In this document: in pieces, positions 3,271 to 62,870 of the stretch
Numbering within the stretch: the first letter of the stretch is position 1
Layout of the letters: each line of letters starts with the position of its first letter
Source: Panopea generosa
Lineage: Eukaryota > Mollusca > Bivalvia > Adapedonta > Hiatellidae
Reading direction: 5' to 3'
Assembly: GCA_029582155.1 (NCBI GenBank)
Contig: CM055897.1
Span: 18,563,035-18,627,034, forward strand
DNA length: 64,000 nucleotides
Position numbers and translations under genes: made by a program
Notes under the pieces: generated by a model
Told to the model about the DNA's origin: nothing
The model's database searches: none
Seen by the model: only the letters and a program-made list of their open reading frames with translations

Positions 3271-4200
3271 CGTCTAAATCGTTCTCTTGAAACTTGATGT
3301 ACAAAAGTTTACCAGTTAGTTGCAGACAGATAATTATTTTGAGGTCTTTCTTTACTACTGTTGTATTGTGTTTCCTCATGGCTCCCTGGAACTACACAGA
3401 GGTTGATAATATAACCATAATAGTGAACATGACAAAAAAAATGACAAAATGAACATGACACCAATTCGGAGGATTCCTACCCCTCTGCAGAGATTGACAG
3501 TGATTCTATTCTTAGCCGGAACAACACGGGTTTAAGATTTGAAAATCCCAGAATTCCTTAGTTACCGAGTTAAGATATTTTAAAGATAAAAATTTTCTTA
3601 AACTTATTTTTGTCTTAATGGTTTCATGTATCCCACTTAAATTAAGAAATTGCTACATCTAAGCTCAGAGAATATTACTGAGTTTAGATAATTTCTAAGC
3701 GAATATTTAAGAAGCTTTATGAAATCGGGCCCAGGTCTTACACATACGTGCATATTTAATGTACATGTATGACTACCGTGTGTATTGTGGGTAGACGATT
3801 ATCTGAATAGCGATAACGAGCTACACAAGGCAGCATATATAATGGCGGAGCAAACAGCAACACACGTGACAAGATGGTGGAAACACATAAATTTTTTTTT
3901 TCTCGCAACAAAATATATTGTCATAATGATTTAATCAGTTCTTAATAAGGCTGTAGAAATTTGGAGGTGATTCAAGTATGTTTGGAACTCTCGTTCAGTG
4001 ATTTATGCCAAAATTTGGGTTCTCTCGACGTTTTTCTAGCCGTTTTCTTCAATTACTTCGTTTGTTTACACAGTGATAGCCTCTTCTCGCTTTGATTTTA
4101 TATGAACATAGCCTTTTATTCCACTGACTTTGTAAAAGCTATAATTAGCTCGACATAACATCATATAAACTTTTACCTTGACAGTTTTTCCTTGATACTT
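3271..4200. other. No recognisable gene
   Basis: AT-rich sequence without a domain-bearing ORF, splice-consistent exon or clear repeat. Short poly-T runs are present. Nothing can be supported here. Confidence 0.5.
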
Positions 4201-6716: not shown

Positions 6717-6887
6717 TCTAACGAAATATACCACTGGAACAGATTAAAAAAAAAACGTAATGAGGTCGTCCAACTTATACGCCAAGCAAAGCGGTCATAC
6801 TATGATAATTTAGCAAGTAAACTTAATTCTGTATCTCTCTCTCCCAAACACTGGTGGAAAATATTCATTCATCTCTTAAAATGACAA

Positions 6888-7893
6888 GCCAGCAATTCCT
6901 CCACTGAATGACAATGGAACTATTATTTCCAATTTTGAGCTAAAAGCCAACTTACTAAATTCATTTTTCCAATCTCAGTCAATCTTAAATGACGATAACA
7001 TTGAATCACCTATTTTGATACCTAGACAAAACATCCCAGTTTTACTAGATCTTGCTTTACTACCCATCGATGTGTGCAGTATTCTTAAGTCGTTACCAGT
7101 TGGAAAAGCCCTAGGTCCCGATGAAATTAATAATTATGTGCTCCGTGAACTAAGTAATGAATTATCGACCCCACTGTGTGATTTGTTTAACACTTGTTTA
7201 ACAAACGGTTTTTATCCTAAAGTTTGGAAGGAAGCGTTCGTATGTGCTACTTACAAGACAGGAGACCCGTCTTTGGCTAATAATTACAGACCAATTTCAC
7301 TTCTTAGTGTATTGAATAAAGTATTTGAAAGGCTCATATTTAAGCACATGTTCAATTATTTTCGAGATAGTAACTTTCTCTCTTCATTTCAATCTGGTTT
7401 TGTGCCTGGTGATTCAACTGTCAACCAGCTATCTTTTCTTTATAATACCTTCTGCAAAGCGATTGACGATGGCAAAGAGATCAGAGTTGTATTTTTTTAT
7501 ATAAGTAAAGCCTTTGATAGAGTTTGGCATAAAGGGTTGTTGGCTAAATTGAAAGCAGCTGGTATATCTTGTCAACTTTTGAATATTTTAACTGACTATC
7601 TTAAAGACAGGCGCCAATGTGTTGTCATTCCAGGCGCGAGGTCTAACTGGAGACCAATTAAAGCCGGTGTTTCCCAGGGATCTATATTAGGTCCTCTTCT
7701 GTTTTTAGTTTATATAAATGACATAGTATCTGATATTCACTCCAACATACGACTTTTTGGCGATGATACAAGCCTTTACTTTATAATTAATCATAATAAT
7801 GATATTGTTCATGCTGCACAGACATTAAATACTGACATAAATAAAATACCTGAATGGTCAAATAAATGGCTGGTTACTTTTAATCCATCCTAA
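6888..7893 (+). pseudogene. LINE reverse transcriptase domain, motif A aspartate lost
   Basis: The open frame includes KALGPDEI and NYRPISLLSVLNKVFERLI (fingers), motif A as FFYISKAFDRVWH, motif B AGVSQGSILGPLLFLVYIND, and motif C FGDDTSLY (7756-7767). In functional relatives motif A begins F-D-x-S-K-A-F-D; here the first, metal-binding Asp is Tyr (TAT at 7498-7500). Motif C has Gly in place of the usual Ala. The frame ends with TAA at 7891 followed by another stop at 7900. The upstream linker (6717-6887) is in other frames. An intact copy would copy its own RNA at a nicked target; this one is very unlikely to be active. Confidence 0.85.
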
Positions 7894-27429: not shown

Positions 27430-28914
27430 GAGGCTAGGGTGGTGTGTTCAGATTCAGTGATGGTGTTGTATGTAGGGGTGGTGAGGTGATATTCAGTGAT
27501 GGTGATGAATGCAGGGCAGTGTAGTGAAGCGATATCAAGTGATAATGATGTATGGAGGAGTAGTGAGGTGATATTTAGTGACAGTGTTGTATGCAGAGCA
27601 GTGTAGTGAGGCGATATAAGGTGATGATGTATGCAGTAGTAGTGAGGCGATATTCAGTGATGAAGATGTATGCAGGAGTAGTCAGGCGATATTCAGTGAT
27701 AAAGATGTATGCAGGAGTAGTGAGGCGATATTCAGTGATGAAGATGTAGGCTGGAGTAGTGAGGCGATATTAAATAACAGTGATGTATGCAGAGCAGTGT
27801 AGTGAGGCGAGAAAAGGTGATGATGTAAGCAGGAGTAGTGAGGCGATATTCAGTGATGAAGATGTATGCAGGAGTAGTGAGGCGATATTCAGTGATAAAG
27901 ATGTATGCAGGAGTAGTGAGGTGATATTCAGTGATGAAGATGTAGGCTTGAGTAGTGAGGCGATATTAAATAACAGTGATGTATGCAGAGCAGTGCAGTG
28001 AGGCGATATAAGGTGATGATGTATGCAGGAGTAGTGAGGCGATATTCAGTGATGGTGATGTATGCAGGAGTAGTGAGGTGATCTTCAATGATAGTGTTGT
28101 ATGCAGAGCAGTGTAGTGAGGCGATATAAGGTGATGATGTATGCAGGAGTAGTGAGGCGATATTCAGTGATGAAGATGTAGGCTGGAGTAGTGAGGTGAT
28201 CTTCAATGATAGTGATGTATGCAGAGCAGTGTAGTGAGACGATATAAGGTAATGATGTATGTAGGATTAGTGAGGCGATATTCAGTGATGAAGATGTATG
28301 CAGGAGTAGTGAGGCGATATTCAGTGATAAAGATGTATGTAGTAATGATGATGCATGCAGGAGTAGTGAGGCAATATTAGGTGATGATGATGTAGGCAGG
28401 AGTAGAGAGGTGATATTCAGTGATGGTGTTGTAGGCTGGAGTAGTGAGGTGATATTCAGTGTTAAAAATGTATGTAGTATTGTTGATGTATGTAGGAATA
28501 GTGAAGCGATATTAGGTGATGATGATGTATGCAGGAGTAGTGAGGCAATATTCAGTTATAAAGATATATGTAGTAATGATGATGTATGCAGGAGTAGTTA
28601 GGCGATATTAGGTGATGATGATGTAGGCTGGAGTAGTGAGATGATATTCAATGACAGTGTTGTATGCAGAGCAGTGAAGTGAGGCGATATAAGGTGATGA
28701 TGTATGCAGGAGTAGTAAGGCGATATTCAGTGATGAAGATGTAGGCTGGAGTAGTGAGTTGATCTTCAAAGATAGTGATGTATGCAGAGCAGTGTAGTAA
28801 GGAGATATAAGGTGATGATGTATGTAGGAGTAGTGAGGCGATATTCAGTGATGAAGATGTATGCAGGAGTAGTGAGGCGATATTCAATGATAAAGATGTA
28901 TGTTGTAATGATGA

Positions 28915-30690
28915 TGTATGCAGGAGTAGTGAGGCGATATTAGGTGATGATGATGTAGGCACGAGTAGAGATGTGAAATTCAGTGATGGTGTTGTAGGCT
29001 GGAGTAGTGAGGTGATATTCAATGATAGTGATGTATGCAGAGCAGTGTAGTGAGGCGATATAAGATGATTATGATGTATGCAGGAGTAGTGAGGCGATAT
29101 TCAATGATGGTGAAGAATGCAGGAGTAGTGAAGCGATATTTAATGATGGTGCGGAATGCAGGGCAGTGTAATGAGGCGATATAAGATGATTATGTTGTAT
29201 GCAGGAGTAGTGAGGCGATATTCAGTGATGGTGATGTGTGAAGGTGTAGTGAGGCGATATTCAGTGATGAAGATGTATGCCGAGCAGTGTAGTGAGGCGA
29301 TATTTAGTGATGATGTATGCAGGAGTAGTGAGGCGATATTCAGTGATGAAGATGTATGCAGGAGTAGTGAGGCGAATTTCAGTGATGGTGATGTATGCAG
29401 GAGTAGTGAGGCGATATTCAGTGATGGTGATGTATGCAGGAGTAGTGAGGAGATATAAGGTGATGATGACGTAGGCAGGGGTGATGAGGTGAGATTCAGT
29501 GATGGTGTTGCATGCAGGAGTAGTGAGGAGATATAACGTGATGATGATGTAGGCAGGAGTAGTGAGGCGATATTCAGTGATGAAGATTTGTGCAGGGTAA
29601 TGTAGTGAGGTGATATTCTGTGATGATGATGTATGCAGGGGAGGTGTGGTGAGATTCAGTGAAAGTGACGTAAACAGGGATTGTTAGGTGAGATTCAGTG
29701 ATGTTGATGTATGCAGGATAGTGTAGTGAGGCGCGATTCAGGGATGGTGATGTATACAAGAGTAGTGAAGTGATATTCAGTGGTGGTGATGTATGCAGTG
29801 TATAATAGTGAGGTGATATTTGGGGACGATGATTAATGTAGGGGTGGTGAGGCGATATTCAATGATGGTGATGTATGCGTGAGTAGTGAGGTGATATTCA
29901 GTGATGGTGATGTATGCAGGTCAGTTTGATGAGGCGATATAATGTGATGATGATGTAGGCAGGGGGTGAGGTGAGATTTAGTGGTGTTATTGTATGCACG
30001 AGTAGTGAGGTAATATTCAGTGATGGTGATGTATGCAGGATAGTGCAGTGAGGTGATTGAATGTAATGATGATGTAGGCAGGGTGATGAGGTGAGATTCA
30101 GTGATGGTGTTGTATGCGGGAGTAGTGATGAGATATAATGAGATGATGTAGGCAGGGGTGATGAGGTGAGATTCAGTGATGGTGTTGTATGCAGGAGTAG
30201 TGATGAGATATAGGGTGAATGTGATGTTGGCAGGGGTGATGATGTGAGATTCAGTGATGGTGTTGTATGCAGGAGTAGTGATAAGATATAAGGTGATGAT
30301 GATGTAGGCAGGAGTAGTGTGGCGATATTCAGTAATGATGATTAGTGCAGAGTAATGTAGTGAGGTGATATAAGGTAATGATGATGTATGCATGGGTGGT
30401 GAGGTGAGGTTCAGTGATTGTGATGTAGGCAGAAATATTGAGGTGATATTCAGTGATGGTGATGTATGCAGGGTAATGTAATAAGGTGATATTACGTGAT
30501 GATAATGTAAGCAGGGTTTGTGATGATGATGTATGTAGGGGTGGTGAGGTTAGATTCAGTGATGGTGATGTAGGCAGGAGAAGTGATGTGATATTCAGTG
30601 ATGGTGATGTATGAAGGGCAGTGTAACGGATTGATAAAAGGTAATGATGATGTTGGCACGTGTGGTGAGGTGAGATACAGTGATGGTGAT
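28915..30690 (+). repeat. Higher-order repeat, copy 1 (1775 bp)
   Basis: Landmarks repeat with exactly the same spacing of 1775: 'gaggcgatatta' at 28931 and 30706, 'agcagtgtagtg' at 29041 and 30816, and 'taatattcagtgatgg' at 30011 and 31786. The second copy (from about 30690) is cut by the transposon at 31841 and continues after 37494. Variant units are shared between the copies in order, so the duplication is much younger than the units. Confidence 0.8.
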
Positions 30691-31838
30691 GTATGCAGTA
30701 GTAGTGAGGCGATATTAGATGATGATGATGTAGGCAGGAGTAGAGATGTGATATTCAGTGATGGTGTTGTAGGCTGGAGTAGTGAGGTGATATTCAATGA
30801 TAGTGATGTATGCTGAGCAGTGTAGTGAGGCGATATAAGATGATTATGATGTATGCAGGAGTAGTGAGGCGATATTCAATGATGGTGATGAATGCAGGAG
30901 TAGTGAGGCGATATTCAATGATGGTGAGGAATGCATGGCAGTGTAATGAGGCGATATAAGATGATTATGTTGTATGCAGGAGTAGTGAGGCGATATTCAG
31001 TGAAAGTGATGTGTGAAGGAGTAGTGAGGCGATATTCAGTGATGAAGATGTATGCCGAGCAGTGTAGTGAGGCGATATTCAGTGATAATGTATGCAGGAG
31101 TAGTGAGGCGATATTCAGTGATGAAGATGTATGCAGGAGTAGTGAGGCGATATTCAGTGATGTCGATGTGTGCAGGAGTAGTGAGGCGATATTCAGTGAT
31201 GGTGATGTATGCAGGAGTAGTGAGGAGATATAAGGTGAGGATGATGTAGGCAGGGGTGATGAGGTGAGATTCGGTGATGATGTTGTATGCAGGAGTAGTG
31301 AGGAGATATAACGTGATGATGATGTAGGCAGGAGTAGTGAGGCGATATTCAGTGATGAAGATTTGTGCAGGGTAATGTAGTGAGGTGCTATTCTGTGATG
31401 GTGATGTATGCAGGGGAGGTGTGGTGAGATTCAGTGAAAGTGACGTATACTGGGATTGTTAGGTGAGATTCAGTGATGTTGATGTATGCAGGTTAGTGTA
31501 GTGAGGCACGATTCAGTAATGATGATGTATACAGGAGTAGTGAAGTGATATTCAGTGGTGGTGGTGTATGCAGTGTATAATAGTGAGTTGATATTTGGTG
31601 ACGATGATGAATGTAGGGGTGGTGAGGCGATATTCAATGATGGTGATATATGCAGGAGTAGTAAGATGATATTCAGTGATGGTGATGTATGCAGTTCAGT
31701 TTAATGAGGCGATATAAGGTGATGATGATGTAGGCAGGGGGTGAGGTGAGATTTAGTGGTGTTATTGTATGCACGAGTAGTGAGGTAATATTCAGTGATG
31801 GTGATGTATGCAGGATAGTGCAGTGAGGTGATATAATG

Positions 31839-31841
31839 TAA
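31839..31841. other. Target-site duplication TAA, left copy
   Basis: Left flank ...ATAATG-TAA then the TIR. The empty-site paralog at about 30058-30072 has a single TAA at this place. Confidence 0.65.
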
Positions 31842-32236
31842 TAGTCCGGGAGCTAGAAGGGTCCACCGTGCACCCCCCCCCCCCCCACAAACCTCCGAAC
31901 CAATATTTTTCTGAAGCCCCATGACGCCTTGATCACGAAAATAAATGTTAACATTGCGTAAGTTGGGACAAACTTCCGTTTATGACGTTATCAAGATGGC
32001 CGCCATAGTGAAATTTACCCAAAATGTGAAAAATATCGTAAAATCGTTATTTTCTGATCAAATTTAACAAATGAGGTATCAAAATGACCTCAATAGAATA
32101 GCAAACTCATCAATTAACAAAACAAACTACTATAAAAAGATTTATTTCTAAACAAATGAATTTATATCGATTTTGAGGTCAAAATTGAACATTTTCACAA
32201 AATAATTGTCACTTTATTTTGGTCAAATTTCTTCCA
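31842..32236 (+). repeat. Left terminal inverted repeat of the Academ-like element
   Basis: From TAGTCCGGGAGCTAGAAGGG through a poly-C run, 'aacattgcgtaagttgggac', 'atggccgccatagtgaaatt' and 'ggtcaaatttcttcca'. Each block is found in reverse complement and reverse order in 37101-37491. Identity appears high, with small indels, for example in the poly-C run (31876-31889). Confidence 0.9.
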
Positions 32237-32387
32237 TGCCTGAGAGTAGTTTTTCGAACCCCATTCAATCAACATCAAACACAGATTCATGTCAATTTTC
32301 AGGAGCGGTCAATCACAATTTCATGAAGCATTTTTTGTATATTACAGATCAAGCATATAGTGATTGGTTCTAATACAAACAACGACA

Positions 32388-35300
32388 ATGAGGCAAGGTT
32401 CCTCTGATACCCAGGATCCCCCAAAAGATGATGGCCCGCCGTCAAAGAGAAGACGTGGTGAAAGTTGTAAAGCATCAACGTTCGATATGAAACCAAGATG
32501 TGTTAACCATATTCAGGGATTAAAATGAAAGATCGCAAAAAAACACTGGACAAAATAAAATCCCGAAGACTTTGCCAACCAGTCGGTTCTATACATAGAA
32601 TGTAACAGGTGTGTGACCTCATTCCCGAAACATATACAGACTCTGATGGGTATCATCGTGAATGTTATCAGAGGTTCACCATGAATCTTAAGCGCCTTGA
32701 GGTTCCTCCAGATACGCCGGAAGCAACATGTTCATCCAGAACAAGTCGGCGATCTTCAAATGACAGTGATACCACTATCTTCAAGCCCAATTGTATATTT
32801 TGTAACTCCGAAGGGCGCAAGAAAATCAAGGTAAAGGGTAACTGGACAAGTGAAGGAACCTCTAAGTTTGAGTTTGATGGGTGGAAAAGAGTTCTAGAAG
32901 TAGCAGAGCAGAAATCCGATGAACAACTCTTGACTAGAATAAGAGGACATGATTTGTTTGCATGCGAGGCGCAATTTCACAAGAGCTGTAGAGCCAAGTA
33001 CATTACAGACCCAAAGCAGTGGAGAAGTACTGATGACGAAAAGAGGACACAGCATGAAAAGCTTGAACTGACACACAGGACAGCCTATCAGAATGTATGT
33101 GAGAAGATTGACAAAGATGTGATATGTGACAAAAACATTGTCACAATGTGTACGATTGTTCAGGTCTATATTTCGAGCCTGCAAGATACGGAGTTCGCCA
33201 ATCCTAACTATCGCAGTGAGAAACTGAAGGTCAAGCTGGCGAAGGATATCAATTATTGTGGGAAATTATCATTCTGCCGACTTGATAAGCAGACAAACTT
33301 TACACCATGCATTGTATACAGCTCGGACATTGATGTAAACCGTGCTGTCAAGAGTGCATATGCACTAGGTTCCACTGACATAATTAAGGATGCCGCCACT
33401 CACTTACACCAATTGATTCTGCCGCTACCAATGGAGAATGAAAATTACCAAAGCATGTGCTTATGTGTATGACAATGCGACATCTGTTCAGAAGCAAACA
33501 ACTGATCACCTTATTGAACAGAATGGTACACTCAGAGAGTTACTCCTTCTCTCTTGAACTTGAGACAGCTATTGCTCAGGCTGTAGAAGAAACATCAAGT
33601 TTTCCGTCCACCCAAATTGTTCGTGATCCTGATGCTCCATCGGTGTTTCATTCCGAATTTGACAACTTTGATCAGCTCTTGAACGATCTGACAGGCATGG
33701 GGACTATTCACACTGCTCATGGTATTATGATGCAGGACATCGAAGGAACCCCAGAGCAACAGGGGGGTACTCGTCCTGAAATCCCGGCCGTCAGCAGAAG
33801 TGGAGCGCGTTCTCTGAAAATAGATCAAGTCGGGAATCTTCCTGAATGCCATGTAACACAACGAAAGAGTCCGTCCCTCACAATCCAACAGTTGACATGC
33901 CCTGGAGGCGAAGAAGCCCTAAAACGCGGCATGAGACGCAATTTTGTCTGGGTTCTCATTCGCATGATGAGCCTCACAGGACGTACCTGGTTGGACAGGC
34001 TTCACATCCTTAACTGGTATGCCACCAACAAATCTCACCACCATTGACTATTACCCAGTTATCACCTAACCCATCACCGATTATAAGACCGTGCAAAAAT
34101 GTCTGAGATATGCTGAAGAGGCCACACATGAAGTAAACCAGCAGTATGTCATAACAACCTTCGACTTGGGAGTCTGCATGAAGGCATATCCATTGCTTTG
34201 GAACAACCCTAAACGGTATGAGAAGCACATTGTTTTGATTGGTACCTTCCACCTCGTGTGTGCTTATCTGAAGATGGTGGGAGAAGAAGATGGATGGCTC
34301 TGGTTTGTCTGACATCCTACTTGAAGCAGGGCTGATTGCCTCTGGTTCATTGCAAGGGGTGATATCCGGAAAGCAATATGACAGGGCGATGCACTGCCAT
34401 AAGACCATGCTGGAGTGCTTGGAAAGGTTGTTATTGGAACAATACATGGCTCACCAAAATGAGCAGGAACTGTTCTCTTCCATCCCAGCAGACTCGATGA
34501 AGAAGTTGGATGATTTATTACAATCGCTCACAGAAACCAAATTGGACGTAGCATTAGATGACGTTGCATTCAGTAACTACATCCAGGGTTACCTGCAGTA
34601 TAGAGTGGAGGTCAGTGAAGGCAGTCACGGAAAAACTGCCAAACTTTGGGCTTCCTACATGAGTCATATAGGGCTAGTACTCTCTCTCGTACAGGCAGTG
34701 AAGCACAATGACTTCCTTGCATATGCACACTGTTTGCATCCCATGACAGACATATTTTTTGCATTTGGTGGTCAGAACTACGCCCGATATCTCACATACG
34801 GCTCCATCTTCCTCCTGGCTAACATTGAGGTATCTCATCCCGGAGCAACTGATTTGATCAAGAGGGGAGCAATGAGTGTGGCTCGTTCCTTCATACCCGG
34901 AAACAGCTGTGCCGTCGACAAAACTATGGAGGAAACCTTTATGAGACATGCCAAGTCTCATGGTGGCACTGGTGGGGGTGGTTTTTGGTGTTTCAGGGGT
35001 TCTCAGCAACCATGATGCATACCAAAGATGGGTGCGAACAACACACGCGAGATCCCAGTATGTCAACACGACACTGAACATGGCTGACATGCTGACAGAC
35101 AGCCAAACTGGAACAATGCATCGTGATGTACAAACTGCATAGATTCTGAAAAGTGAGAAATGCGTACGAAAGGCAAAGGAGGCAGCTGAAAGCTTCATCA
35201 ATCCATTTATAGTTGACGACCAAGACAAACTTATCAGTCTTTCATCTGGAGCTGCAGGCACTGAGATTATAGCAACTGATGTTTTCGGCGCAGAAAAGTC

Positions 35301-36880
35301 AGGAAAAGAGGCACAGAAAGCTTTCATAAAAGACAGGCTGGAGAAGAATGAAAACTTCTTTGAACCAGTAAAGCGGATGAATCTGAGAACGCTTGGTGAC
35401 ATGAACAAGAAGATGAAAGTAACAACGGCAAACAACAAAGTGGTCCAGTATAAGCAACAAGGCAATATTGCCTTCCAACTATTTGTGAAATCCCAAAGCC
35501 AGGGCTTGCAGTTGGACATGAAGGAGCTGATGACGTACTCGCTGACCCCTGTCCCATACAGCATTGGAACAGCAGATGGATTTCTGGCAAAGACAGACAA
35601 ATCTAAATCTTTCCAGTATCTGACCAAAGAGTGTGAGGATGCACCGGTTCCATCGGCTGAGTCAACACTTGTGGTCTATGATGGTAATGCCTACTTCTAC
35701 TACCTCAAGGAGATACCGGCCAATTTCAGCTTGATCTGCAACAAGATTTTTGGCATGATGTCAACGACAACAGATGCGGTGTTCAGCAAAGATAGGTATA
35801 CTCCCAATTCTGTCAAATGCATGGAACGTGAGAGAAGGGGCTGTAGTGAGAAGCTCATTGTAAAGGGGGCAAGCACAAAGAAACCTCCTGATTGGACGCA
35901 GTTCCTGACACATGATGACAACAAGACACAATTCATCAATCTCCTCTGCAAGACGTGGAGTAATCATTCATATGCCAATAAGCTCCTTGGAAGAAAAGTC
36001 ATCATCATATGTGAAGGAGCTGCATACCAGCTGACGTCTGAAGATGGGCAAGCACAGCGAAGATGAAGATCGAAACTTTACGCTCATCTCAAGAGGAAAC
36101 TGATTCCAGAGTAGTTCTGTACTGCATGTATGGAAAGGACAAGGGATACGAGTACATCCGGATCAAAAGTCCAGACAGCGATGTATTCTTCATCCTACTG
36201 CACTACGCCCTCACATTGCCAAATGTAGTGATTCTATTTGACACTGGCACTGGAAATAAGCAGCGACTGATCAACATCACCGAACTGGCAGAGGGCTATA
36301 CACAGAACCACTGCACAGCACTCATGTGTCTCCATGCATACACTAGATGTGACACTACCAGCGCATTCAAAGGAATAGGAAAGATCAAGCCACTGAAAAC
36401 TCTCCAGAAAACTCCAAAGTTTGCTGCTGTACTGTGCATGTTGGGGTAAACTTGGGACATAACCGAAGACCTCCTTGATGAACTGGAGGAATTCACGTGT
36501 ATATTCACATCCGCATACAGGAGCTGTGTGCCAAGGAAGACCAACCCCACCCTTCAAAGAATGTGGACCTGGGATCACTTCCACCATGCAGCAGAAGTCT
36601 GGAGCAGCACGTAAGACGTGTCAACTATCAGGTTGGAATCTGGAAGAGGGCCCACATTGCTGAACCAGATATTCCAAATGTTAAGGTTGACCATGGATGG
36701 GAGGTCAAGGGTGGAAAGCTGGAGCCACTGTGGTACACAGGAGATGTTTTGCCACAGGAGCTCATCGACATCGCTGGCGAACCACTGCAGTCTGACGACG
36801 ATGTGGATTCAGATGTCTCGGAAACTGTATACCAGCTGACAGATGTGCTAGATCAGTTTAGTGTACAAAGCAGTGATTAA
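32388..36880 (+). pseudogene. Academ-like transposon protein with XPG/FEN-like nuclease region (broken)
   Basis: The first ATG (32388) gives MRQGSSDTQDPPKDDGPPSK then an NLS-like KRRRGE. Later blocks, in varying frames: CDLIPETYTDSDGYHRECY and CIFCN (Cys/His clusters), GHDLFACEAQFHKSC, VEETSSFPSTQIV, NFVWVLIRM, TFDLGVCMKAYPLLW, HIVLIGTFHLVCAYLK, RSFIPGNSCAVDKTMEETFM, LVVYDGNAYFYYL (Asp, 35680), SQEETDSRV (36090-36110), SPDSDVFFIL (Asp pair, 36174-36182), HAYTRCDTTSAF (36333-36368), and VNYQVGIWKRAH near the end. The last acidic motifs match the order of FEN/XPG-type nucleases. The stop is TAA 36878. Lesions include TAA 32603, TAA 34067, TAG 35140, TAA 36447 and frameshifts near 32526, 33450, 33550, 33980, 34285, 34960, 36050 and 36495. 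Confidence 0.75.
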
Positions 36881-37100
36881 AGCACAGACAGTGATCTGGA
36901 TTGACAATATGTACCCTCGAATGACATAAACTCTGTGTTTGTTAGATATTTAGACACACAGAAACGGCAATTATTGTTGATATGACTGTTGATATTTGAA
37001 CAGTTGTGATACACAGGATATGAACAAAATAGCGTTTGGTTATTCAGCTCAATAGTGTGAATAAAACATTTCTGAATCATGACTAAGGTTGTTTGCTTTC

Positions 37101-37491
37101 TGGAAAAGATTTGACCAAAAATAATAACAATTATTTTGTGAAAAATTGAAATTTTGACCTCAAAATCGACATAAATTAATTTTGTTCGAAATAAATCTAT
37201 TCATAGTAGTTTGTTTTGTTAACAGATCTGTTTGTTAATCTATTGCGGTCATTTTGATACCTCATTTGTTACATTTGATCGAAAAATAACGATTTTATGA
37301 TTTTTTTCACATTTTGGGTAAATTTCACTATGGCGGCCATTTTGATGACGTCATAACCGGAAGTTCGTCCCAACTTACGCAATGTTAACATTTATTTTCG
37401 TGATCAGGGCGTCATGGTGCTTCAGAAAAAAATTGGTTCGGAGGTTTGTGGGGAGGGGGGTGCACGGTGGACCCTTCTAGCTCCCGGCCTA
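37101..37491 (-). repeat. Right terminal inverted repeat of the Academ-like element
   Basis: Inverted partner of 31842-32236: starts 'tggaaaagatttgacc', contains 'tggcggccattttgatgacg' and 'gtgcacggtggacccttcta', and ends CTCCCGGCCTA. The interval 36881-37100, between the coding stop and the TIR, has an AATAAA ('gtgaataaaac') near 37060, a possible polyadenylation signal. Confidence 0.9.
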
Positions 37492-37494
37492 TAA
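37492..37494. other. Target-site duplication TAA, right copy
   Basis: The right TIR ends ...GGCCTA and is followed by TAA-TGATGATG, matching the other half of the empty site. A 4-bp reading (TAAT) is possible if the TIR starts at AG instead of TAG. Confidence 0.65.
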
Positions 37495-38265
37495 TGATGA
37501 TGTAGGCAGGGGTGATGAGGTGAGATTCAGTGATGGTGTTGTATGCAGTAGTAGTGAGGAGATATTCAGTGATGGTGATATATGCAGGGCACAGTAGTGA
37601 GGTGATAAACGGTAATGATGATGTTGGCAGGGGTGGTGAGTTGAGAAACAGTGATGGTGATATATGCAGGGTAGTGTAGTGAGGTGATATTCAGTGATGA
37701 TGATGTAGGCAATGGAGGTTTTGTGAAATTCAGTGATGGTGATGTGACATTCAGTAATGGTGATGTATGCAGGAGTAGTAAGAATATATTCAGTGATGGT
37801 GATATGCAGGGCAGTGTAGAGGAGCGATATAAGTTGAAAATGATGTAGACTGGTTAGGTGTTGTGAGATACAGTGATTGTGATGTATGTAGGGTGGTGAG
37901 GTGAGATTCAGTGATGGTGATGTATACAGGAGTAGTGACCTGATATTCTGTGATGATGATGTTGGTGATAAGGTGAAAATGATGTATGCTGGGCAGGTAT
38001 TGTGAGATTCAGTGATGGTGATGTATGCAGGAGTAGTGACCTGATATTCTGTGATGATGATGTAGATGATAAGGTTAAAATGATATATGCTGGGCAGGTG
38101 TTGTGAGATTCAGTGATGGTGATGTATGTACGGGTGGTGAGGTTAGATACAGTGATGGTGATGTATGCAAGAGTAGTGAGGCGAGATTCAGTGATGATTA
38201 TGTATGTAGGGGTGATGAGGTGAGATTCAGTGATGGTGATGTAAGTAGGGGTGGTGAGATGAGAT
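37495..38265 (+). repeat. 39-bp minisatellite, right block
   Basis: Continues the array left of the transposon with the same unit ('gatgatgtaggcaggggtgatgaggtgag', 'attcagtgatggtgatgtatg'). Compared with the higher-order copy 1, part of it (about 30110-30590) is missing. It ends abruptly in the MULE fragment at about 38265. Confidence 0.88.
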
Positions 38266-38857
38266 TCAGTGATTGTGGACGTAAAATCAAGATGCAGTTT
38301 GATTGTGAAGAAAGTGCTGGAGTTATACTGTGGTGACTTACCTTCCATGCTCAAAGCTGTGAAGAAAGCGTTGAAATCCACAATACAGTGCTATGATGGT
38401 GACTGCACAACGTATCGAAGAAACTCTTTCGTATGTGGGGGAGGCCAAAAGTCGTGCTGGTTTGAACACTCTGCATTCTTGGCTCCACACAAGATCGCCA
38501 CATTGAGAATGGCTGAAAGTGATAAAGAACTGTTAGAAGAAATACTCAAAATACGCTTATGTGAAAAAGCAATAAATAGTACACAGTTTAATTATAATAC
38601 ACAATCAGTGGAGTCATTTAATGCTACACTATCAAAAAGTACTCCTAAGAATGTGAACTTCTCCCGTAACTGTGGAGTACATGGGTATTTATCTGTCAAA
38701 GAGAACAGACCATGCAGTTTCAAAAATTGGTACGGACATGAGAAGTCATCGAAAGTACAGGAAAGACAAGCAGTACAACAGACGTATAATTTTGCGTCGT
38801 GGTGAAATGGAGTCTCGCCATCGGTGGTATAAACGTCTCAAAAACCATAGATAATCT
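38262..38857 (+). pseudogene. MULE-type transposase, C-terminal fragment
   Basis: One frame (38269-38805) reads LPSMLKAVKKALKSTIQCYD, DCTTYRRNSFVCGGGQKSCW, FEHSAFLAPHKIATLRM, FNYNTQSVESFNATLSKSTPKNV and NFSRNCG. After a frameshift near 38665 a second frame gives MRSHRKYRKDKQYNRRIILRRG and ends at TAG 38852-38854. The CPGG-x-KxWF, NTQKxExxN and SxPKNxxxSRN arrangement is that of the Mutator-like transposase domain family common in cnidarians and molluscs. The 5' part is missing: the minisatellite joins directly. It differs in sequence from the MULE at 56.5 kb, so it is a separate family member. Confidence 0.7.
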
Positions 38858-52629: not shown

Positions 52630-54970
52630 TACTACTACTACTACTTTTAATACTACTATCAACAATAATAATAATAATAAGATAATAATTATAAAAATAA
52701 TAATAATATTATAAATAGTTTCAAGTTTATTCAGCAATCGGCAAATATTGCCTTTGGCCATTTACAAAGTTATACAAAGAAATATGGAAAAGACAATACA
52801 TATTGTAACAAACATATATAACGAACATTACACAAATAACAACACATCACATGTACATTAATCCTTCGAAGCAATGATACTTTCAAGGGTATTTTTTTCT
52901 TATTACAAGAGCTTCTTGAATAAATTTTGAAATTTTGAACAACATCTTTTATTCTTAGACGACATGAAATCTGTAATTTATTGAGTGTAGGCCAAGCCTT
53001 GCGGTATTTCGTACGAACTTTGTTGTTTTTAGTACAACATAGTAAGAAATGCTATTCTGACTCAATAAACATTATGGTTGCAAAGTTTGCATAATCTATC
53101 AGCACGATCAATACCATTATAGTGTCCGGTCTCAATTTCAAGAGAATGTGAGCTTAAGCTTAAGCACTTATATTACTTTAGTAGAGAATCATTTTTAAGT
53201 TTGTCAAAATAGTCTTCATAGCAAAATATGCTTTTAATAATCAAGTTTAGGGGAGTTGTGTATACTCATACTCCATTATGAACAAACTGGTCTTGCAATC
53301 GCCTTTAAAATAAAGAGAAATAATTGGCATTGGTCCGAAAGTCGTTAGTTAAATTCGAATAACCAAGATTGTCAATAATAGTTCTAATCCGATTAGCCTA
53401 TCAACTCCCATTTATGTTATTACATTGATCAATATAAATGCTGTATATAGGTGAGTTAATATCACTCATGACCTTTAACCAAAACTTTAACGACCTTTCC
53501 TAGTTATTACAGTTAATGGAAATCGCCCTAATTCCCCATAAACAGCATTATTTGACACATGTTAACGTACTCCCAAAATATACATGTACTTGCAAAATTT
53601 GATATGCAATTTATCCATTTCTTTATAAATATACACGCCCCAAGCTTCAGCTCCATACAATAAAATTGGTACAACCATGAAATCGAATAATGACAGTTTT
53701 GTTTTAATATCTAACGGTACTCTATCAAACACCGAATGCCCTTAAGGCTTGATCAAATAAAGTTTTAACAGTGTTTGGCAGGTTACCGGTGTGGGTTAAG
53801 TTAATACCTAAATATGTTAAGTTATCTACCATTTCATTTTTTCTCTCCATTTTTCAACAATTCCACATTACGAATTGTTTTCCTTTTTATTTACATTTAT
53901 TTTCAAACCCTATTTATGCAAGTATTGGTAAATACTATTAATCTGAGCCTGTAGGCGAAAAGGATAAGATATCTTGTCAACATAATCAGTAAGTGCCTCA
54001 AAATTGATTTTAGCGACAATATCATTTATAAACAAAATGAACAATATGAGCGACAGTGGCTCTCCTAGCTTCAAGCCCAACGTGACGTTGAAGAACTCTG
54101 ACAAATCCATATTCGATGAAAGTTAATCACATAATTTAACATTGTTATATATAGAATTTATCATATGTACTATTTTACAGCTAATACCAGATTGAAGGAA
54201 TTTCACGAGGAGAGCATCCCTTATAACAGTGTCAAATGCTTTTTCATAGTCAATGAATACACACCATAATTTAGAGTTAGCGGATAATACATTTTGTAAA
54301 ATAGAATGTAAAATAAATACTGCATCTGTGGTAAAGCGTTTATCACGAAAATTGTGCATCATTAAAAACATTTTCGGTTTCACACCAATTATTTATTCGG
54401 TTTCTTAAGGTTAAGGAAAAAATCTTACCGATTGTATTTACTTACGTTATCCCGCGATAATTTGAAAGATTACCAATATTTCCTTTTTTATGAATGGGGA
54501 CAATTACACAGTTACACCAAGCCTAGGGATAAATACCCGAGTTATAGATAATATTAAACATCGTACATAAGTAAGGACTTATAAAATCACTCGCTTCAAT
54601 AAAGAAATAAGCTACATTGTTATAATAAACGGCGCTTTTGTTTCTATTCAATGAAGAAGTTGTTTTTCGTATTTCTTCGATACTGAACGAAGCATCTAAC
54701 ATTTCAATGCGTATCGTCTCATCACGAGTTCGGCTATAATCTTCCATGTTTTCATGGACATGAGGTGTATTAGAAATTGACGTAAAATGATCAACAAAGT
54801 CGCTCATACTCATATCGTTTTGGTTATTGTTTTTTCTTATAAGTTAACTTATATATATATTTCCAGAACTTTTTGGGTGATTTTTCACTTAAATTAATAA
54901 TAGTAGTAATTTTATTATATAGTATATTTTCTTTATACTTTCTGTTTGTATCAAACAATGACATCATGGA
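52630..54970 (-). mobile_element. 5'-truncated LINE, reverse strand, inserted in the MULE locus
   Basis: On the reverse strand, reading from 54970 down: EKSPKKFWKYI (linker), MSMSDFVDHFTSI, SFSIEEIRKTTSSLNRNKSA, IVPIHKKGNIGNLSNYRGI, WCVFIDYEKAFDTV (RT motif A), GLKLGEPLSLILFILFINDI (motif B), then YGAEAWGVY, KFCKY, NNAVYGELGRFPL, HSLEIETGHYNG, and a 3' UTR with AATAAA and an (ATT)n tail at about 52655-52705. Many frameshifts and stops break it and no intact YxDD motif C was found. The tail style and the GELGR motif are typical of molluscan LINEs. It differs from the 5377 LINE. Confidence 0.75.
53910..54813 (-). pseudogene. LINE reverse transcriptase remnant
   Basis: Three open pieces make up the RT domain: 54523-54813 (palm entry; the GP.GI-like motif is degraded to NRNKSAVYYNNV), 54123-54383 (motif A FIDYEKAFD, both Asp present) and 53910-54110 (motif B, where Q of KQGxPLSP is L). 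Pieces are in shifted frames and the active-site DD segment is replaced by TDYVDK. No function remains. Confidence 0.7.
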
Positions 54971-55204
54971 ATATGGACATTTTTAACAAAATAGTAAAAT
55001 AATAAATATTGCTTTTCTATTTTTGGTGTTTTTTCTAACATATTGCTCTGTACGGTTAAACAAAAACGTGTCACAGTAGCAAAATATGCATAACAAAGAA
55101 ACTGACCTTAATATATGATTGATTGATTGAATATTTATCGTCTTTTTATGCCATCGAAGACTAACAAACGATCAGTTAAACTAACCACAGTCCTGGGATC
55201 CTGA
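54971..55204. other. No recognisable gene
   Basis: AT-rich spacer between the LINE and the SINE; nothing seen. Confidence 0.4.
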
Positions 55205-55425
55205 AAGGTTAATTAGTACTCTAGCACACACCATCTCTGCATGTTACTGATTATTACTTTCCCATTTGAATCAGCTGTGAGAGATGAATGATAATTAGAC
55301 ACAATGTTGTATATCTGTTATCACGGAGACTGTTGCCGGGTTGGAATTCGAACTCACGACCCCTGAATTGATAGTCAGACGTGTTACCCACTGAGCTAAT
55401 CGAGCCTGGCTACCTTGATATATAG
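55205..55425 (-). mobile_element. SINE family A, best-preserved copy
   Basis: The reverse strand begins at about 55411 with 'aggctcgattagctcagtgg' (A-box), continues 'gtaacacgtctgactatc' and has a clear B-box 'gagttcgaattcc', then the body down to about 55205. This identifies the family as tRNA-derived and fixes the orientation of the other two copies. Confidence 0.8.
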
Positions 55426-55934
55426 ATATACCCTTGACGCCAAATTTCACAAAGCCAGAAGGTCAGTTTTAGATCTCATCTCGACAAGGTGAATACTGTA
55501 CCAAGTTTTCCAAAGGGATAAGAAGATATGGAACAGACTTGAAACGTCATATGGATGGACAATATTTCTATATTTCCCGTCGGCAATGTGACAGGGGATA
55601 ACATGAGTATATGGTTTAAAAAAATCAAATTTGTATTGAGTTTATTACATGAATCTTGAAAATGAGAGCCTGTTCAACCCATTACAGGAATGCTTCACAT
55701 TGGCTCAGGTCACAGACAGATTGAGAGTCTCATGTCAGTACTTGAAATTTCAGTTTTTAATTCATACACTATGAAGAGACGTGAAATTGAAGTAGCCGGG
55801 CCAATCTTATTCATTACACAAATAACTTGTACGGAAGCACTGAATGAAGAAGTGACAATGATTTAAAAAGGCCAATGGTAATTTGTAATGTATTATAATT
55901 TTCAGTTTATTTCACCATGATAAACATGTGTTAT

Positions 55935-56000
55935 GACTGAGAATTTGAGCGGGATCGAACCCGTGACCACTTGATTGGTTCTCTGGTCTGACATGAAGTG
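55935..56000 (-). other. tRNA-like segment, reverse strand
   Basis: Reverse reading gives 'cacgggttcgatcccgctc', a perfect B-box with a paired T-stem, preceded by 'accaatcaagtggt'. The A-box side ('gtcagaccagagaacc') is poor. It is likely a SINE head within the MULE intron. Confidence 0.45.
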
Positions 56001-56204
56001 TACTATATTTTATGTTGTTTATATTCATATCAGTGCACTGATGTGACAAGTCATCTAACAATGATTGAAATATATAATCTTTAGCTACTGGTTAGAGGTT
56101 GATAGAGATTATCTCATGGGTCTTTGTCTGTCACCATCTAGTCGTAAAAAATATATGTTTTACATTGATTCTATACTAGAAACGCATAGTTTATATGTAT
56201 AATG

Positions 56205-56290
56205 ATAAAGCCTGGGGATCGAATCTGCAGCATCTGATGTGAGCAGCCAACACGCTATCCACTGCACAACCACTCCGCTTGAATCGGTGT
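56205..56290 (-). other. tRNA-like segment, reverse strand
   Basis: Reverse reading gives 'gcggagtggttgtgcagtgg', 'atagcgtgttggctgctcac' and 'cagattcgatccccaggc'. A- and B-box-like blocks are the right distance apart. It is probably another SINE head. Confidence 0.45.
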
Positions 56291-56489
56291 ACAGAGACGA
56301 ATGTCATTCAGTTTTTACCAGATGTGTATGTTTATAACGTTTATAACGTAAAGATCCTGGTCAGTGTTTTGACCTTAATCATAACAGAAGCTGCTGCTGG
56401 GTTATAGCCTTTGGATTGTTCAGCTATACCTGCTTTGTACTGCTTTATTAATGTACATCGCCATTTATTTCCTTATTTAAAATAATGTT

Positions 56490-57540
56490 TCCTGATGAAA
56501 GTCAGTCAAGTTCTAGTACACCAATATCGGGTCAATTCAAATATGATACGGGCTGGCAAAAGCTTGGTTCAGGACGATGCTACGATAGTTAATCAGGTGT
56601 TAACACCATGTTAGGCAATAGTACAGGTAAAATTGTTGCATATAATGTCCGATCAAAAGACTGCAGAAAATGTACACATTATGAAAACAAAATACAAACA
56701 CCGCCAGTACATAAGTGTTCTAGAAATTGGTATGGGAGCTCAAAGGCTATGGAGCCTGATGTTGAAAGTAGCTTAGAAATAGAATAAAAAAATATACAAG
56801 TTGATGAAATGATAATGGACGATGATGCAACCATTATGGTTAAGATAAATAAGGTAGTAGCTCATCCAATGGCTTAATGGTCAGATGCCAGTAACACTAA
56901 AAAACATCTTGGTAACAGTCTGTATTGTTTGCAGAAGAAACATAAGTATTTAACAACCAAGGTTATACAGTGGTTTCAGAAATGTTTCAGTTATTCTGTA
57001 ATACAGAATAAGGAGAATCCTGATGGACCGACAAAAGCTATCAATCAAATTGTTCCGCATTTATTTGCAGATTCCTGTGACAATTGGTGTGGTTACCATA
57101 GATATACGGATAACTACAAGCACAGTTCAACACCATATGGTAAAGACCTTGTTGGTGCAGAACTACGAAAAGACTTGGACCATGTGTTTAAAAGACTCGT
57201 ATTAAATGTTGATAAGATTGCTCCTGCAGCGTCTACTAAGGATGTAGAATCCTTTAATAACATGATAGCCTTAAAAGCCCCCAAAGCGATGCCACTATTC
57301 TGCATCCAATAGTTAAAAAATAGACTAATTTATGCGGTAGCCAAAACAAATGCTGGGCATTCATATGTTAACCGTGTTAATGTAGAAACTGAAATTTCTC
57401 CTGGAAAATTCTATGCTAAATTGGTAAAGAAAAGTGACTATACAAGGGTGAAAAGATCATAGTTTGAAAGTACAAGAACATTCAAGAAAAGGAAACTTGA
57501 AAAGAAACTTAAAAACAAAAATGTTATTTCTCGGAATTAG
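56490..57540 (+). pseudogene. MULE-type transposase core (single frame with stops)
   Basis: One frame, with no frameshift, encodes PISGQFKYDTGWQKLGSG, MLGNSTGKIVAYNVRSKDC, CSRNWYGSSKAMEPDVESS, MIMDDDATIMV, WSDASNTKKHLGNSLY, AINQIVPHLFADSCDNWCGY, YKHSSTPYGKDLVGAELRK and LNVDKIAPAASTKDVESFN, then KNRLIYAVAKTNAGHSYVN. This order, with the Asp of DTGWQK (56545) and the acidic DDDAT motif, is that of Mutator-like transposases. In-frame stops lie near 56590, 56785 and 56878 and at 57310, 57460 and 57538. An acceptor-like 'tgtttgcag' occurs at 56933 but the frame reads straight through it. The protein would cut and join the element's ends if intact. Confidence 0.72.
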
Positions 57541-58471
57541 CTTAGAGAAGGCATCTCTTACATGTCGGTTGTGGCTACCAGTCATATTTGTGATGTAACA
57601 GAAATACCAATCCCTGTAATCATACCACCATCCCAAAAGGTTGTTTGTGATGAAGCGCAACAAAACGCTCACTGTGATATTGAGACAATATCTCTTCACA
57701 AAAGTTGTGATATTACTCAGTTGGCTGGTGTATGTTGCAATGAACATTTTTATAAATATATTATGCCATCTCAGCCTTTTTCCACTGCTGCGTCAGACAT
57801 TACAGGGTTAATAGTGCAACGCGGCAAAAAGTTTCAAAAAGGTCAAATAGTCAGAAGTGAAAGCTTACAGTGTGCCCTTCAGTTGTTTTTGGCTTGGTTA
57901 CAGAGTATAGGAAAGTGCATTCTCATTGGCCCTAAGTTTTGGAAATTTGATTTACCAAGATTAATCAAAGCTTTTGAAATTTGTAAACTCCTAAATGCTT
58001 TTCAGGAAATAGTGATTGGATCTATTGATATACATTTATTACTTTATTTAAAACCCTGCATTCACAACTTGAAAGTTACAAACAGTCTGCATTGGCAGAT
58101 GTTCAAAGTTTCCAATTATTGGTTCAACATTCTAGTATAACTGACGATATCTTACTCACCCAAAGTAAACTGACAACTTACTCTATAAGTTTTTACAAGC
58201 ATAACAAAGATGGTGACTATAATATTTCTACAATGGACTGCTTCCTAAACGACAAAGTTATATCCAGTGATATGGTTAAAACATTGCAAGTAGTGGGCTC
58301 TGCTTACAGCACCTGGATTTGGCAATAATGCGCTATGGTATGGAAGTGTTTTCTCATATATTTAAGGAGAAACTAGCAAATGAGAAGCCTAGAGTTACAA
58401 ACATGAAACGTATTATTGATAGTGTAGTCAGTTATCTCCGAAAGGATAAACCACATTTATTCTGTGAGTAA
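57541..58471 (+). pseudogene. DEDD 3'-5' exonuclease-like domain fused to the MULE transposase
   Basis: Same frame as the transposase: REGISYMSV, then HCDIETISLHKSCDITQLAG (exonuclease motif I, D-x-E retained), YIMPSQPFSTAASDITGL, LFLAWLQSIGKCILIGPKF, WKFDLPRLIKAFEIC (motif II Asp) and SIDIHLLLYLKP. After a frameshift near 58050: SALADVQSFQLLVQHSSITD (motif III Asp; the usual upstream His appears as Gln). After another near 58310: YGMEVFSHIFKEKLANEKPR and IIDSVVSYLRKDKPHLFCE, ending TAA 58469-58471. The DnaQ-type fold could trim DNA ends; that role is inferred. Fusion of this domain to MULE-like proteins is recalled from other molluscan predicted proteins, not tested here. Confidence 0.65.
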
Positions 58472-60589
58472 AAATGACTGGAAAGGACTGGTTAATTGAT
58501 TTAAATATGTAAAAGTTTAATTAAATGAAGTAAACGTTAAACATTATAAAAGTAAAAGTTTATTATGGTAAAAAAAAAATGAAAATTACTGCGCCAACAT
58601 GCAATCCTTACACTGTCGCTTCACCTACCATCAAAATATAGTGCGATATTTATGTGATTAATTTAGCTAAAATCAAAGTATTTTTGTTCTCAAAACACTA
58701 TATCTAAATTCAAAAAGGTGTATTAAATAATTCTATAATTAAGAATTTAAAATACACTGTTGGATTAACGAATTTAGTTATTCGCGTAGTAATACATCGA
58801 ATCATAATGAAGCTACTGCTGTCTGTCTGCGCCATTTTAGAAGTTACTGTCAAGGGTGTCAGATGAATTTTAGATAATTTAATAAATAAGTAAGCCGAAA
58901 AATGCACTTTGTTGGGAAGCTTTTACATTTCATAAAAAAAAATCTGTACACATATTTTCTATCGGACGTATAAATTACCATTATCATGTTTTACTATAAG
59001 CTGTGAAATACGTCTATCGGCAATAACATTCGATTAAGAAATTTTCATGCGTTGTGCGAAAGGAGGTCAATATTGACTAAGCCATTATTGATTGTAATGG
59101 AGTTTTTCGGAAGAGTCTGTCGCTACGTAACATGCCTTCGATGTCTGATCAGCGACCCGTATCGGTTCATCAAACCAGTTTTGCTCCGGTTATTTCTTTG
59201 ATATACCGCTTGCCGCAATGTATTAACTTATTTTTTTCCCAAGTGGTCAAAGCTGGGACTTTTGGACCGAAAATTGCTTGCGTCATTAAAATATTTAATA
59301 AAAACGCGCATTTTTACGTGTTTGCTTCAGTTTTTTAACAATGACTTTAATTATATAATTAATGACATGAATTAAGGAAAGTTATCAAACCAGGACCGAT
59401 TTTATTTTGATGTCGGACCGGAATTGTTTGCGTTAGTCATAACGTTTGGAAAAATATTTGTCGACAGAGTACAGATCTGTGCATCATCAGCGTAACTTGA
59501 ACTAAATAATTAAATATAAAATTTCCATACCGTTTATATATCTTATCCATTAATTTAATATATTTCCTCCATATTACTAATTTCGCAATCCAAAAACATG
59601 CTTCGATTTTCAAAAAGAAACGACATAAAAATGCCACTTACAAGAACTTGAAATTATGTACGTTTCACTCTTACAATATCCTTTTGATGTAAGCCGACGC
59701 ACGGTGCCGTAACAGTCATCAAAGAGACGACAGCAAACATGTTGTTTCGTTCAATACATGCAATGAAATTGTGCAGTTCGTTTCCATATAAACTCTCTCT
59801 TTAGGATGTCCTATAATAATTGAACCTACGCTCATGTGTATATGTCTGTTTTGGTAAATTTCATACCGGTCCTATTTAGCTTTCGAATACATTTAATGAT
59901 TTCCTAAATTGCACGAATACTGCACATGCATTTAGTCCGTATGTTTTATGTATGTACAGAAAAGGAATATAAATACTGACATACAGATAGTCATACTACC
60001 AAGGTCTTAATTATTTTACGCTGAGTTTTCGTTTCATTTAAGTGATATTAGAATCACCGATTTTGATAACTTAATATTTAATTAATTGAAAGTATTTACA
60101 ATATTTTAAAATGATTCGCTTAAATGTTTTACAGTTTTCATTATTTCTTTTCTATTAAATTACATGCCGCAGGTTCATTCATCTGACACATGTTACAATC
60201 AAATATACATATAATTTTCCAAAAGTACTTTCAGGGCACTAAGTAATTTTTTGTACCCATGCGATAAGCGTATTACATAATGATATCGCATCAGAAAGAT
60301 TTATGAAGCGACATTCGAACCCCATTTGAGAAAAAAAAACAGATTAAAATTTTAAAGCATTAGGTTCACTTCAAGTGTGTTTTTCAAAATATTTTTTGCA
60401 TCTGTGTAAAACAAGTATAACATAACAAGAAAGTGTAAAACAAGTATAACATAACAAGAAAGGGAAAAAAATAATGTCAGAAGTCAACTTCTAAGTTCCA
60501 GCTTATATATCATTATATAACTGTACGAATCCATGCATTGCGCATTGAATACAAAATCAATTTTATTTGAAAATTTACTTTATTTGAAA
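58472..60589. other. No recognisable gene; small direct repeat
   Basis: AT-rich. A 29-bp direct repeat ('tgtaaaacaagtataacataacaagaaag') lies in two copies at about 60403-60461. ORFs such as 59132-59338 have no domain. Confidence 0.45.
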
Positions 60590-61489: not shown

Positions 61490-62870
61490 AGGGTAGGAAC
61501 ACGTAATGCTATCAAACGTTTATTTACAGTCCTGTGTTTTACCATTAGACCTCTGACTTGCATAGATTTTGTGACTATTACTTACAAATATTGTTGTTCA
61601 TTAGTTTCAATATCAGATATATAAACAGAAATTGTTTGCATTGGAGTACGTCATTCACAAATGTGAAAGTAATCTCTGCAACAGAACTTAATCTATAAAA
61701 CAATAACAAATTAGGTCTCCCGTTTGAAAATCTATAAACCATTTTATGAAAAGGGGGAAATAACATATAACACTAATTTAGTAATGAGAAAAGTGACAGG
61801 TATTCTTTATTTTATTTTCTGATATGATTTGAAATGGTTCCTACATGTAGAAAGAATGAAACAATTCTCTGCGTTACATGTTTTAAAATTACTGAATTGG
61901 TGTAAACATTCATTGTTTTGTGGCAATTTAACGAAAAGGGGAGAAAATATTTAGCAATGCAACTTAGTAACAAGCAAAGTGACATGTATATTTTTTTTTT
62001 ATTTTCTGATAAAGTTTGTTATAGCGCCTCTTTGTAGGAAGAAAGAAACAATTCCGCACGTTAGAACTTTTAATATGACTGAGTTAGTGTAAAAAGTTAT
62101 TGTTTTGCGGCCATTTTACGAAAAGGGGAGGTAACATTAAGCGTAACTTAGTTACAAGCAAGGTGACATGTTTTTTTTTTTAATTTATTTTCTGATATGG
62201 TTTATAATTGTGCCTATTTGTAGAAAGAATGAAACAATTCTCCGCATTAGAACTTTTATTATTATTGAGTTAGTGTAAAAAGGCATTGTTTGCGGCAATT
62301 TTATGAAAAGGGGAGGTAACAGTTAGAAATATAACTTAGTAACAAGTAAGGCCACATACGACTTTTATTTTATTTTTTGATACGGTTTGTTATAGTGCCT
62401 CTTTGTAGAAAGAATGGAACAATTCTCTGCGTTAGAACCTTTTTTTATTATTGAATTAGTGTAGAAATGCATCGTTTGCGGCCATTTTATGTAAAAGGGG
62501 AGGTAACAGTTAGCACTGTAACTTAGTAACAAGCATGGGTACATATATGTTTTGTTTTATCTTTTGATATAGTTTGGTATAGTGCCTCTTTATAGAAATA
62601 GTGAAACAATTCTTCGCGTTAGAACTTTTTTTATTATTGAATTAGACCAAGTGTCAAAATGCATCGTTTGCGGGCATTTTATGAAAAAAGGGAGATAACA
62701 ATTAGCAATGTAACTTAGTAACAAGTATGGTGACATATGTTTTTTATTTTATTTTCTGATATGGTTTGTTATAGTGCCTCTCTGTAGAAATAATGAAACA
62801 ATTCTCCGCGTTAAAACTTTTTTTTATTATTGAATGAGTGTAAAAATGCATCGTTTACTAATTAAGCAAA
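61490..62870 (+). repeat. Tandem-core element, right copy (about six ~190-bp units)
   Basis: Same family as 1136-2245, including the flank ('ttaccattagacctctgac', 'caaatgtgaaagtaatctctgcaac') and the core. The landmark 'tgtagaaagaatgaaac' or its variants recurs at about 61850, 62036, 62220, 62406, 62592 and 62783. It has twice the core copies of the left element. Its reverse-strand tRNA-like end lies at about 61500-61560. Confidence 0.72.

Follow-up and report, generated by a model that had tools for sequence, protein, structure and literature searches.

Within a 64,000-nucleotide stretch of the genome of the bivalve Panopea generosa (assembly GCA_029582155.1, contig CM055897.1, positions 18,563,035 to 18,627,034; hereafter the window, whose own numbering is used unless another contig is named) we identified a DNA transposon of 5650 bp at positions 31842-37491, bounded by terminal inverted repeats (TIRs) of approximately 395 bp. 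This locus is best explained as an AcademX-type cut-and-paste transposon, present here as a dead copy, a reading to which we assign a probability of roughly 0.8. The features by which a DNA transposon is generally recognised are all present, namely TIRs, dispersed copies with fixed ends, target-site duplications (TSDs) and an empty site. A preliminary description of the window had proposed a transposon with exactly these ends, and the TIRs, 19 genomic copies, TSDs and empty site agree with it. That the locus is a real transposon is an observation; the functions suggested below for its protein are predictions from sequence.

Ends, target site and host array

The left (31842-32236) and right (37101-37491) TIRs align with 89.6% identity over 395 columns, bearing out the inverted repeats of about 390 bp starting TAG(t/g) that had been reported earlier. 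The terminal features are as follows.

31839..31841, no strand: left target-site duplication TAA, directly outside the left end
31842..32236, plus strand: left terminal inverted repeat, starting TAGTCCGGGAGC, placed by TIR alignment
37101..37491, minus strand: right terminal inverted repeat, starting TAGGCCGGGAGC on the minus strand, placed by TIR alignment
37492..37494, no strand: right target-site duplication TAA, directly outside the right end
27452..38277 in pieces, no strand: 39-bp minisatellite array split by the transposon and lying outside it, with its best empty-site unit at 30007-30117

When the two flanks are spliced together around one TAA, the product matches window positions 30007-30117 with 97.3% identity over 112 bp, and this unit is a paralogous empty site within the same 39-bp minisatellite array. 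The duplication is taken as TAA, as previously described, because this best-matching array unit holds the site with one TAA only. In this repetitive array 109 of 114 matches to the joined flanks cross the junction, while the 24-mer at the junction itself has no exact occurrence and one with a single mismatch.

Copies in the Panopea generosa genome

We searched the window's own assembly (1.47 Gb) with the left TIR and obtained at least 41 matches, a lower bound from 40 scored candidates out of 51 in which both TIRs of one copy are counted separately. Around these matches 24 stretches were fetched, 18 of which had both ends readable, giving 19 copies with the window; the six with one readable end (L045, L046, L049, L050, L053 and L054) were left out of the end counts. 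All 19 copies have the aligned ends TAG(T/G)CC... and ...GG(C/A)CTA or variants of these differing by 1-2 bases, so that the TIR search suggested in the preliminary description did yield many copies ending alike. A perfect 3-bp TSD flanks 16 of the 19 (TAA, CTA, TTA, AAA, AAT, ATA, GTT, AAG, TAT or CTG), and the remaining three carry one mismatch (L031, TAT/TAC; L048, ATA/AAA; L052, CTA/ATA). Perfect duplications of differing sequence in so many copies indicate that the ends of the element are fixed. Since the sequence varies among copies the duplication is not tied to TAA; it is 3 bp long and leans towards A/T-rich sequence, with no fixed TAA target. The TAA duplications expected at other copies were therefore found as to length but not as to sequence.

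Three full-length copies (L031, L032 and L033) of approximately 6.0 kb each span the whole of a 6043-bp majority consensus, which we built from 18 copies (the window, L031-L040, L042-L044, L047, L048, L052 and L054), dropping columns present in fewer than three copies and counting gaps of 15 or more as missing. The 18 copies diverge from their own majority sequence by 1.26-1.95%, the window copy being the most diverged, and this low divergence suggests a recent burst. Several shortened copies share internal deletions. One at consensus positions 406-2179 is common to L042, L047, L048 and L052, with the same break in L051; another at 456-2575 is common to L037 and L038, with the same break in L041; and a double deletion, 856-1833 with 2893-3410, is common to L035 and L043. 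The flanks of copies with a common deletion differ, the TSDs of L048 and L052 being among the imperfect ones. Identical deletions at different sites would thus point to shortened copies mobilised by proteins made elsewhere.

Relative to the other copies, the T/G difference between the TIRs at base 4 is swapped between the ends in L032, L039 and L040 (both ends) and in L050 and L053 (one end), as if the ends had been exchanged or converted. In L049 (C4:36698498-36708497) the left part of the element is present as three head-to-tail repeats. Each unit measures about 2.95 kb, the units share 99.8-99.9% identity, and at their junctions internal sequence abuts the left TIR 20-31 bases in from its end; this is a very recent local amplification.

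Coding region

The majority consensus contains one uninterrupted frame of 1591 residues from the first Met. In the window copy two internal deletions, frameshifts and stops break this frame up into seven or more open pieces, and the copy is dead. The single coding region of about 1500 residues described earlier is therefore not intact in the window copy, whose broken state had not been noted before. The coding features of the window copy are listed below, all on the plus strand.

32328..32329: point at which approximately 107 bp of the consensus (positions 502-608) are missing, from the consensus alignment
32606..33472: N-terminal protein segment containing the Cys/His motifs YHxxCY, CxxC and FHxxC, from the open frame and the consensus Cys/His positions
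33421..33422: point at which approximately 182 bp of coding sequence (consensus 1741-1922) are missing, from the consensus alignment
33442..34047: next piece of the broken coding region, without a recognised domain, from the open frame and Pfam search
34070..34312: further piece of the broken coding region, without a recognised domain, from the open frame and Pfam search
34272..35015: DUF6589 region, candidate transposase core, from Pfam PF20231
35143..36066: FEN/XPG-like domain, first half (YDGN, D-x-Y, K and R motifs) with the preceding stretch, from the open frame and motif mapping
36042..36449: FEN/XPG-like domain, second half (EETDSR, PDSD and RCDTTSAFKGIGK) in a shifted frame, from motif mapping
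36482..36880: C-terminal tail of the protein, from the open frame and consensus

The 182-bp coding deletion is what breaks the frame at 33421..33422. The Cys/His motifs of the N-terminal piece may bind zinc; the piece has no Pfam match above cut-off.

DUF6589 region as candidate transposase core

Residues 684-922 of the consensus match DUF6589 (PF20231), a domain not noted in the preliminary description, with E=3.7e-6 and 26.3 bits, and the corresponding window piece matches it with E=7.2e-4 and 18.8 bits. Both fall under the curated cut-off of 27 bits, which is nevertheless passed by four copies of this transposon family (C12:55240632, C1:61605765, C2:13607606 and C3:24223436; 27.8-30.0 bits) among the at least 71 DUF6589 matches in the assembly. 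The same model has matches in none of 14 control genomes. Because it is located in an element with TIRs, we regard the DUF6589 region as the best candidate for the transposase core.

Other DUF6589 loci of this genome match as two pieces separated by some 2-3 kb, in a way suggestive of introns (C10:55686306 with C10:55689290, and C1:91483383 with C1:91481009), and by their arrangement appear to be another DUF6589 family with a different build. Beyond the four family copies, no DUF6589 match lies near a match to the nuclease-like stretch described below among the matches listed, as compared by eye.

C-terminal FEN/XPG-like domain

The acidic motifs at the C-terminal end of the consensus protein can be matched in order to FEN-1, beginning with D1171 (YDGN), D1208, K1216 and R1222 and continuing with E1310/D1312 (EETD), D1336/D1338 (PDSD) and D1395 (RCDTTSAFKGIGK). 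The spacing is compatible with FEN-1 (D to K +8, D to R +14), and a CD..S.F.G.GK motif also fits; the mapping follows the roles of these residues in FEN-1. This stretch, approximately residues 1168-1410, is common to many other loci of the genome. A search with it gave at least 135 matches (132 of 564 candidates scored, identity classes counted by hand), 41 of them at 77-99% identity, which are pieces of this transposon family, while the other 94 range from 25 to 49%. From this distant group four stretches (L055-L058) were fetched and aligned with the consensus. The internally frameshifted L056 was kept in a five-row alignment and dropped from a four-row one, and YDGN was compared only in the consensus, L055 and L056, because L057 and L058 as fetched do not include the first motif. 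The motifs are kept in these other families at 27-38% identity.

Searched against the PDB, the five-row profile gave Exonuclease 1 (EXO1) as the first four of six matches, the best with E=0.019 and with the later motifs in register. In hhalign the four-row profile scored 29.9 against a six-sequence FEN-1 profile, compared with 20.35 for the best of 100 column shuffles and 12.2 for the reversed profile. In NCBIfam one of the four members matched the flap endonuclease Xni (E=0.029), but E. coli Xni itself, when compared directly, produced no match. PHROGs returned three families of unknown function (E 0.041-0.32), viral contigs scanned for relatives yielded nothing useful, and PDB searches with single sequences were empty or irrelevant. 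On the grounds of its motifs, together with marginal and inconsistent profile scores, a FEN/XPG-type nuclease is a plausible identity for the C-terminal domain.

A number of results weigh against these two domain assignments. No function is stated for the DUF6589 family, and we identified no catalytic triad in the part of the protein that matches it. In the EXO1 match the early motifs are aligned but contribute just 1.9 bits, insignificant alone, and the hhalign match to the FEN-1 profile has a probability of 9.6% and covers the last motif region only. A search of the PDB with a trimmed four-row profile returned no chain at E up to 10, and the profile exceeded the best of its 60 shuffles by a bare margin (24.17 against 23.94). 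Single FEN-1 and Xni sequences (17.3 and 17.2) scored like the unrelated SdaB and FucO (17.2 and 18.4). Pfam gave no match to an XPG or PIN family for either the window pieces or the consensus protein, and an AlphaFold model of a 135-residue window piece from its single sequence was unusable (pLDDT, the predicted local distance difference test, 37.7). Because the FEN-1 profile match is limited to the last motif region, we hold the AcademX reading with weaker confidence, and its rivals slightly more strongly, than would otherwise be the case. The nuclease type that had been proposed earlier is thus favoured by the order of the acidic motifs and by EXO1, but not by the trimmed profile, Pfam or the comparisons with single FEN sequences.

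The foremost of these rivals is that the acidic domain represents a different kind of metal-dependent nuclease within the wider PIN-like group, or forms part of the transposase active site. FEN profile scores that are marginal and differ between alignments, and a DUF6589 region with no identified DDE triad, would be in keeping with this. We consider it somewhat improbable given the fit to FEN-1 of the motif order, of the +8 and +14 spacings and of CD..S.F.G.GK, and given that EXO1 tops the PDB search with the five-row alignment.

Proposed mechanism

If the element is a cut-and-paste transposon of the AcademX type, the DUF6589 region would act as an RNase-H-like transposase cutting at the TIR ends and joining the element to target strands cut with a 3-bp stagger, with fill-in by the host giving the duplication. 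The C-terminal domain would serve as a metal-dependent nuclease of FEN/XPG-like type, introducing a second cut or trimming flaps as the element is excised or integrated, and proteins from full-length copies would move the shortened ones in trans. A more specific version, which we regard as doubtful, is that one protein carries two active sites, both required for transposition, the DUF6589 RNase-H-like transposase performing one strand transfer and the FEN/XPG-like flap nuclease cutting or trimming the other strand and so setting the 3-bp TSD. Were this true, a large, diverse and perhaps partly active set of elements would make the role of the second enzyme directly testable.

Relationship to Academ and other transposons

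Elements of the AcademX lineage of the Academ superfamily carry an XPG-type nuclease; our literature search for Academ with XPG or nuclease found no paper stating this. The lineage was reportedly described by Kojima in 2020. Academ is a superfamily listed in Repbase (PMC4455052, in excerpt), which counts it among those with a DDD/E transposase (PMC9587614, in excerpt), and a further study reports an Academ amplification specific to bivalves and, for its curated mollusc library, a mean Academ length of 5565 bp (PMC10294476, in excerpt). TSDs are 3 or 4 bp in AcademX and 9 or 10 bp in AcademH, and are linked to the encoded helicase and nuclease (excerpted text of PMC10045372). The element resembles AcademX in its 3-bp TSD, perfect in 16 of 19 copies, and in an apparent second nuclease-like domain beside the candidate transposase. 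Because these two features are combined, the Academ-like assignment made earlier is likely, with a transposase that may be of the Academ type. The family is probably new, within the already described AcademX type.

The AcademH lineage, too, consists of DNA transposons placed in the superfamily proposed here, but differs in its 9-10 bp TSD and its helicase (PMC10045372, as excerpted). It was rejected on the 3-bp TSD of the present element and on the lack of a helicase match, none being listed by Pfam for the 1591-residue consensus at E up to 10. KolobokP and KolobokD also combine a DDD/E transposase with a second nuclease, but theirs is of the His-Me finger or DEDDh type and accompanies a 4-bp TTAA duplication (from the available part of PMC9587614), whereas here the 3-bp duplication is variable and the motifs are FEN-like. 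With FEN-1, EXO1 and XPG the element shares ordered acidic motifs and a glycine-rich motif after the last Asp; it differs from them in that the similarity lies near noise and the domain is fused to a transposase-like protein.

It is possible, though unlikely, that this cut-and-paste transposon belongs to a different superfamily, or to an unnamed one, and is merely AcademX-like, with a transposase core unrelated to Academ. The likeness to AcademX is drawn from its published description, and the transposase or the nuclease may belong to a different subfamily, a further point against the assignment; and our literature search on DUF6589 found no paper tying it to Academ. Duplications of 3 bp are also made by other superfamilies such as Harbinger, which can likewise give TAA. 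Harbinger itself was rejected, as the TSD varies beyond TWA across copies and no Harbinger transposase is listed for the consensus. Against another superfamily stand the combination of a 3-bp TSD, a size of about 6 kb and a second nuclease-like domain, which fits AcademX (PMC10045372, in the part available), and the size of the element, which fits the Academ mean of 5565 bp (PMC10294476, likewise in part).

A host gene family lying between repeats by chance, which could be argued from the earlier statement that proteins related to this one are frequently recorded as host genes, is ruled out for this family by the same ends with perfect TSDs at different sites in 16 of 19 copies and by the empty site.

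For a family of large transposons the ends are now defined exactly, together with the length of the duplication and the entire protein. According to the preliminary description, host genes listed only as uncharacterised are what proteins bearing these motifs are often taken for; one of them, in this genome, belongs to a mobile element. The link from such a protein to transposon ends thus stands for this genome, but is not the first of its kind, AcademX having already been described with a nuclease.

Related nuclease loci

Two leads outrank the window copy. The first is the group of 94 distant matches to the nuclease (25-49% identity); the second, contained in it, comprises at least 21 matches at 28-29% identity on the same query span. 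Seven of these 21 fall within open frames that are each exactly 1492 residues long (C5:80871762, C15:44096158, C19:16582948, C13:32867608, C16:1523873, C14:42434580 and C14:42428421). The 21 matches may be taken as one family, which, to judge from its frames, is probably young and intact and perhaps still mobile; the part of it read comprises 951 bases of one copy (L058). In such a relative, with several frames of full protein length, the role of the extra nuclease could be examined.

Other features of the window

The end of a Mutator-like transposase (PF20700, 32 bits, above cut-off) lies at 56878-57309. It is followed at 57541-58137 by an open frame with a match to the Exuperantia RNase-H-like domain (E=1.9e-5, 25.7 bits, below the cut-off of 27). 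The region 56878-58137 is perhaps another transposon with a second nuclease; the inverted repeats found within 53500-60300 are only short and imperfect (25-27 nt, 70-81%). A reverse transcriptase (RVT_1, E=7.5e-25) of an element resembling a long interspersed nuclear element is found at 6880-7890, and arrays of a similar unit of about 190 bp (CCATTTTATGAAAAGGG...) lie near both ends of the window, at 1341-1909 and 61739-62856.

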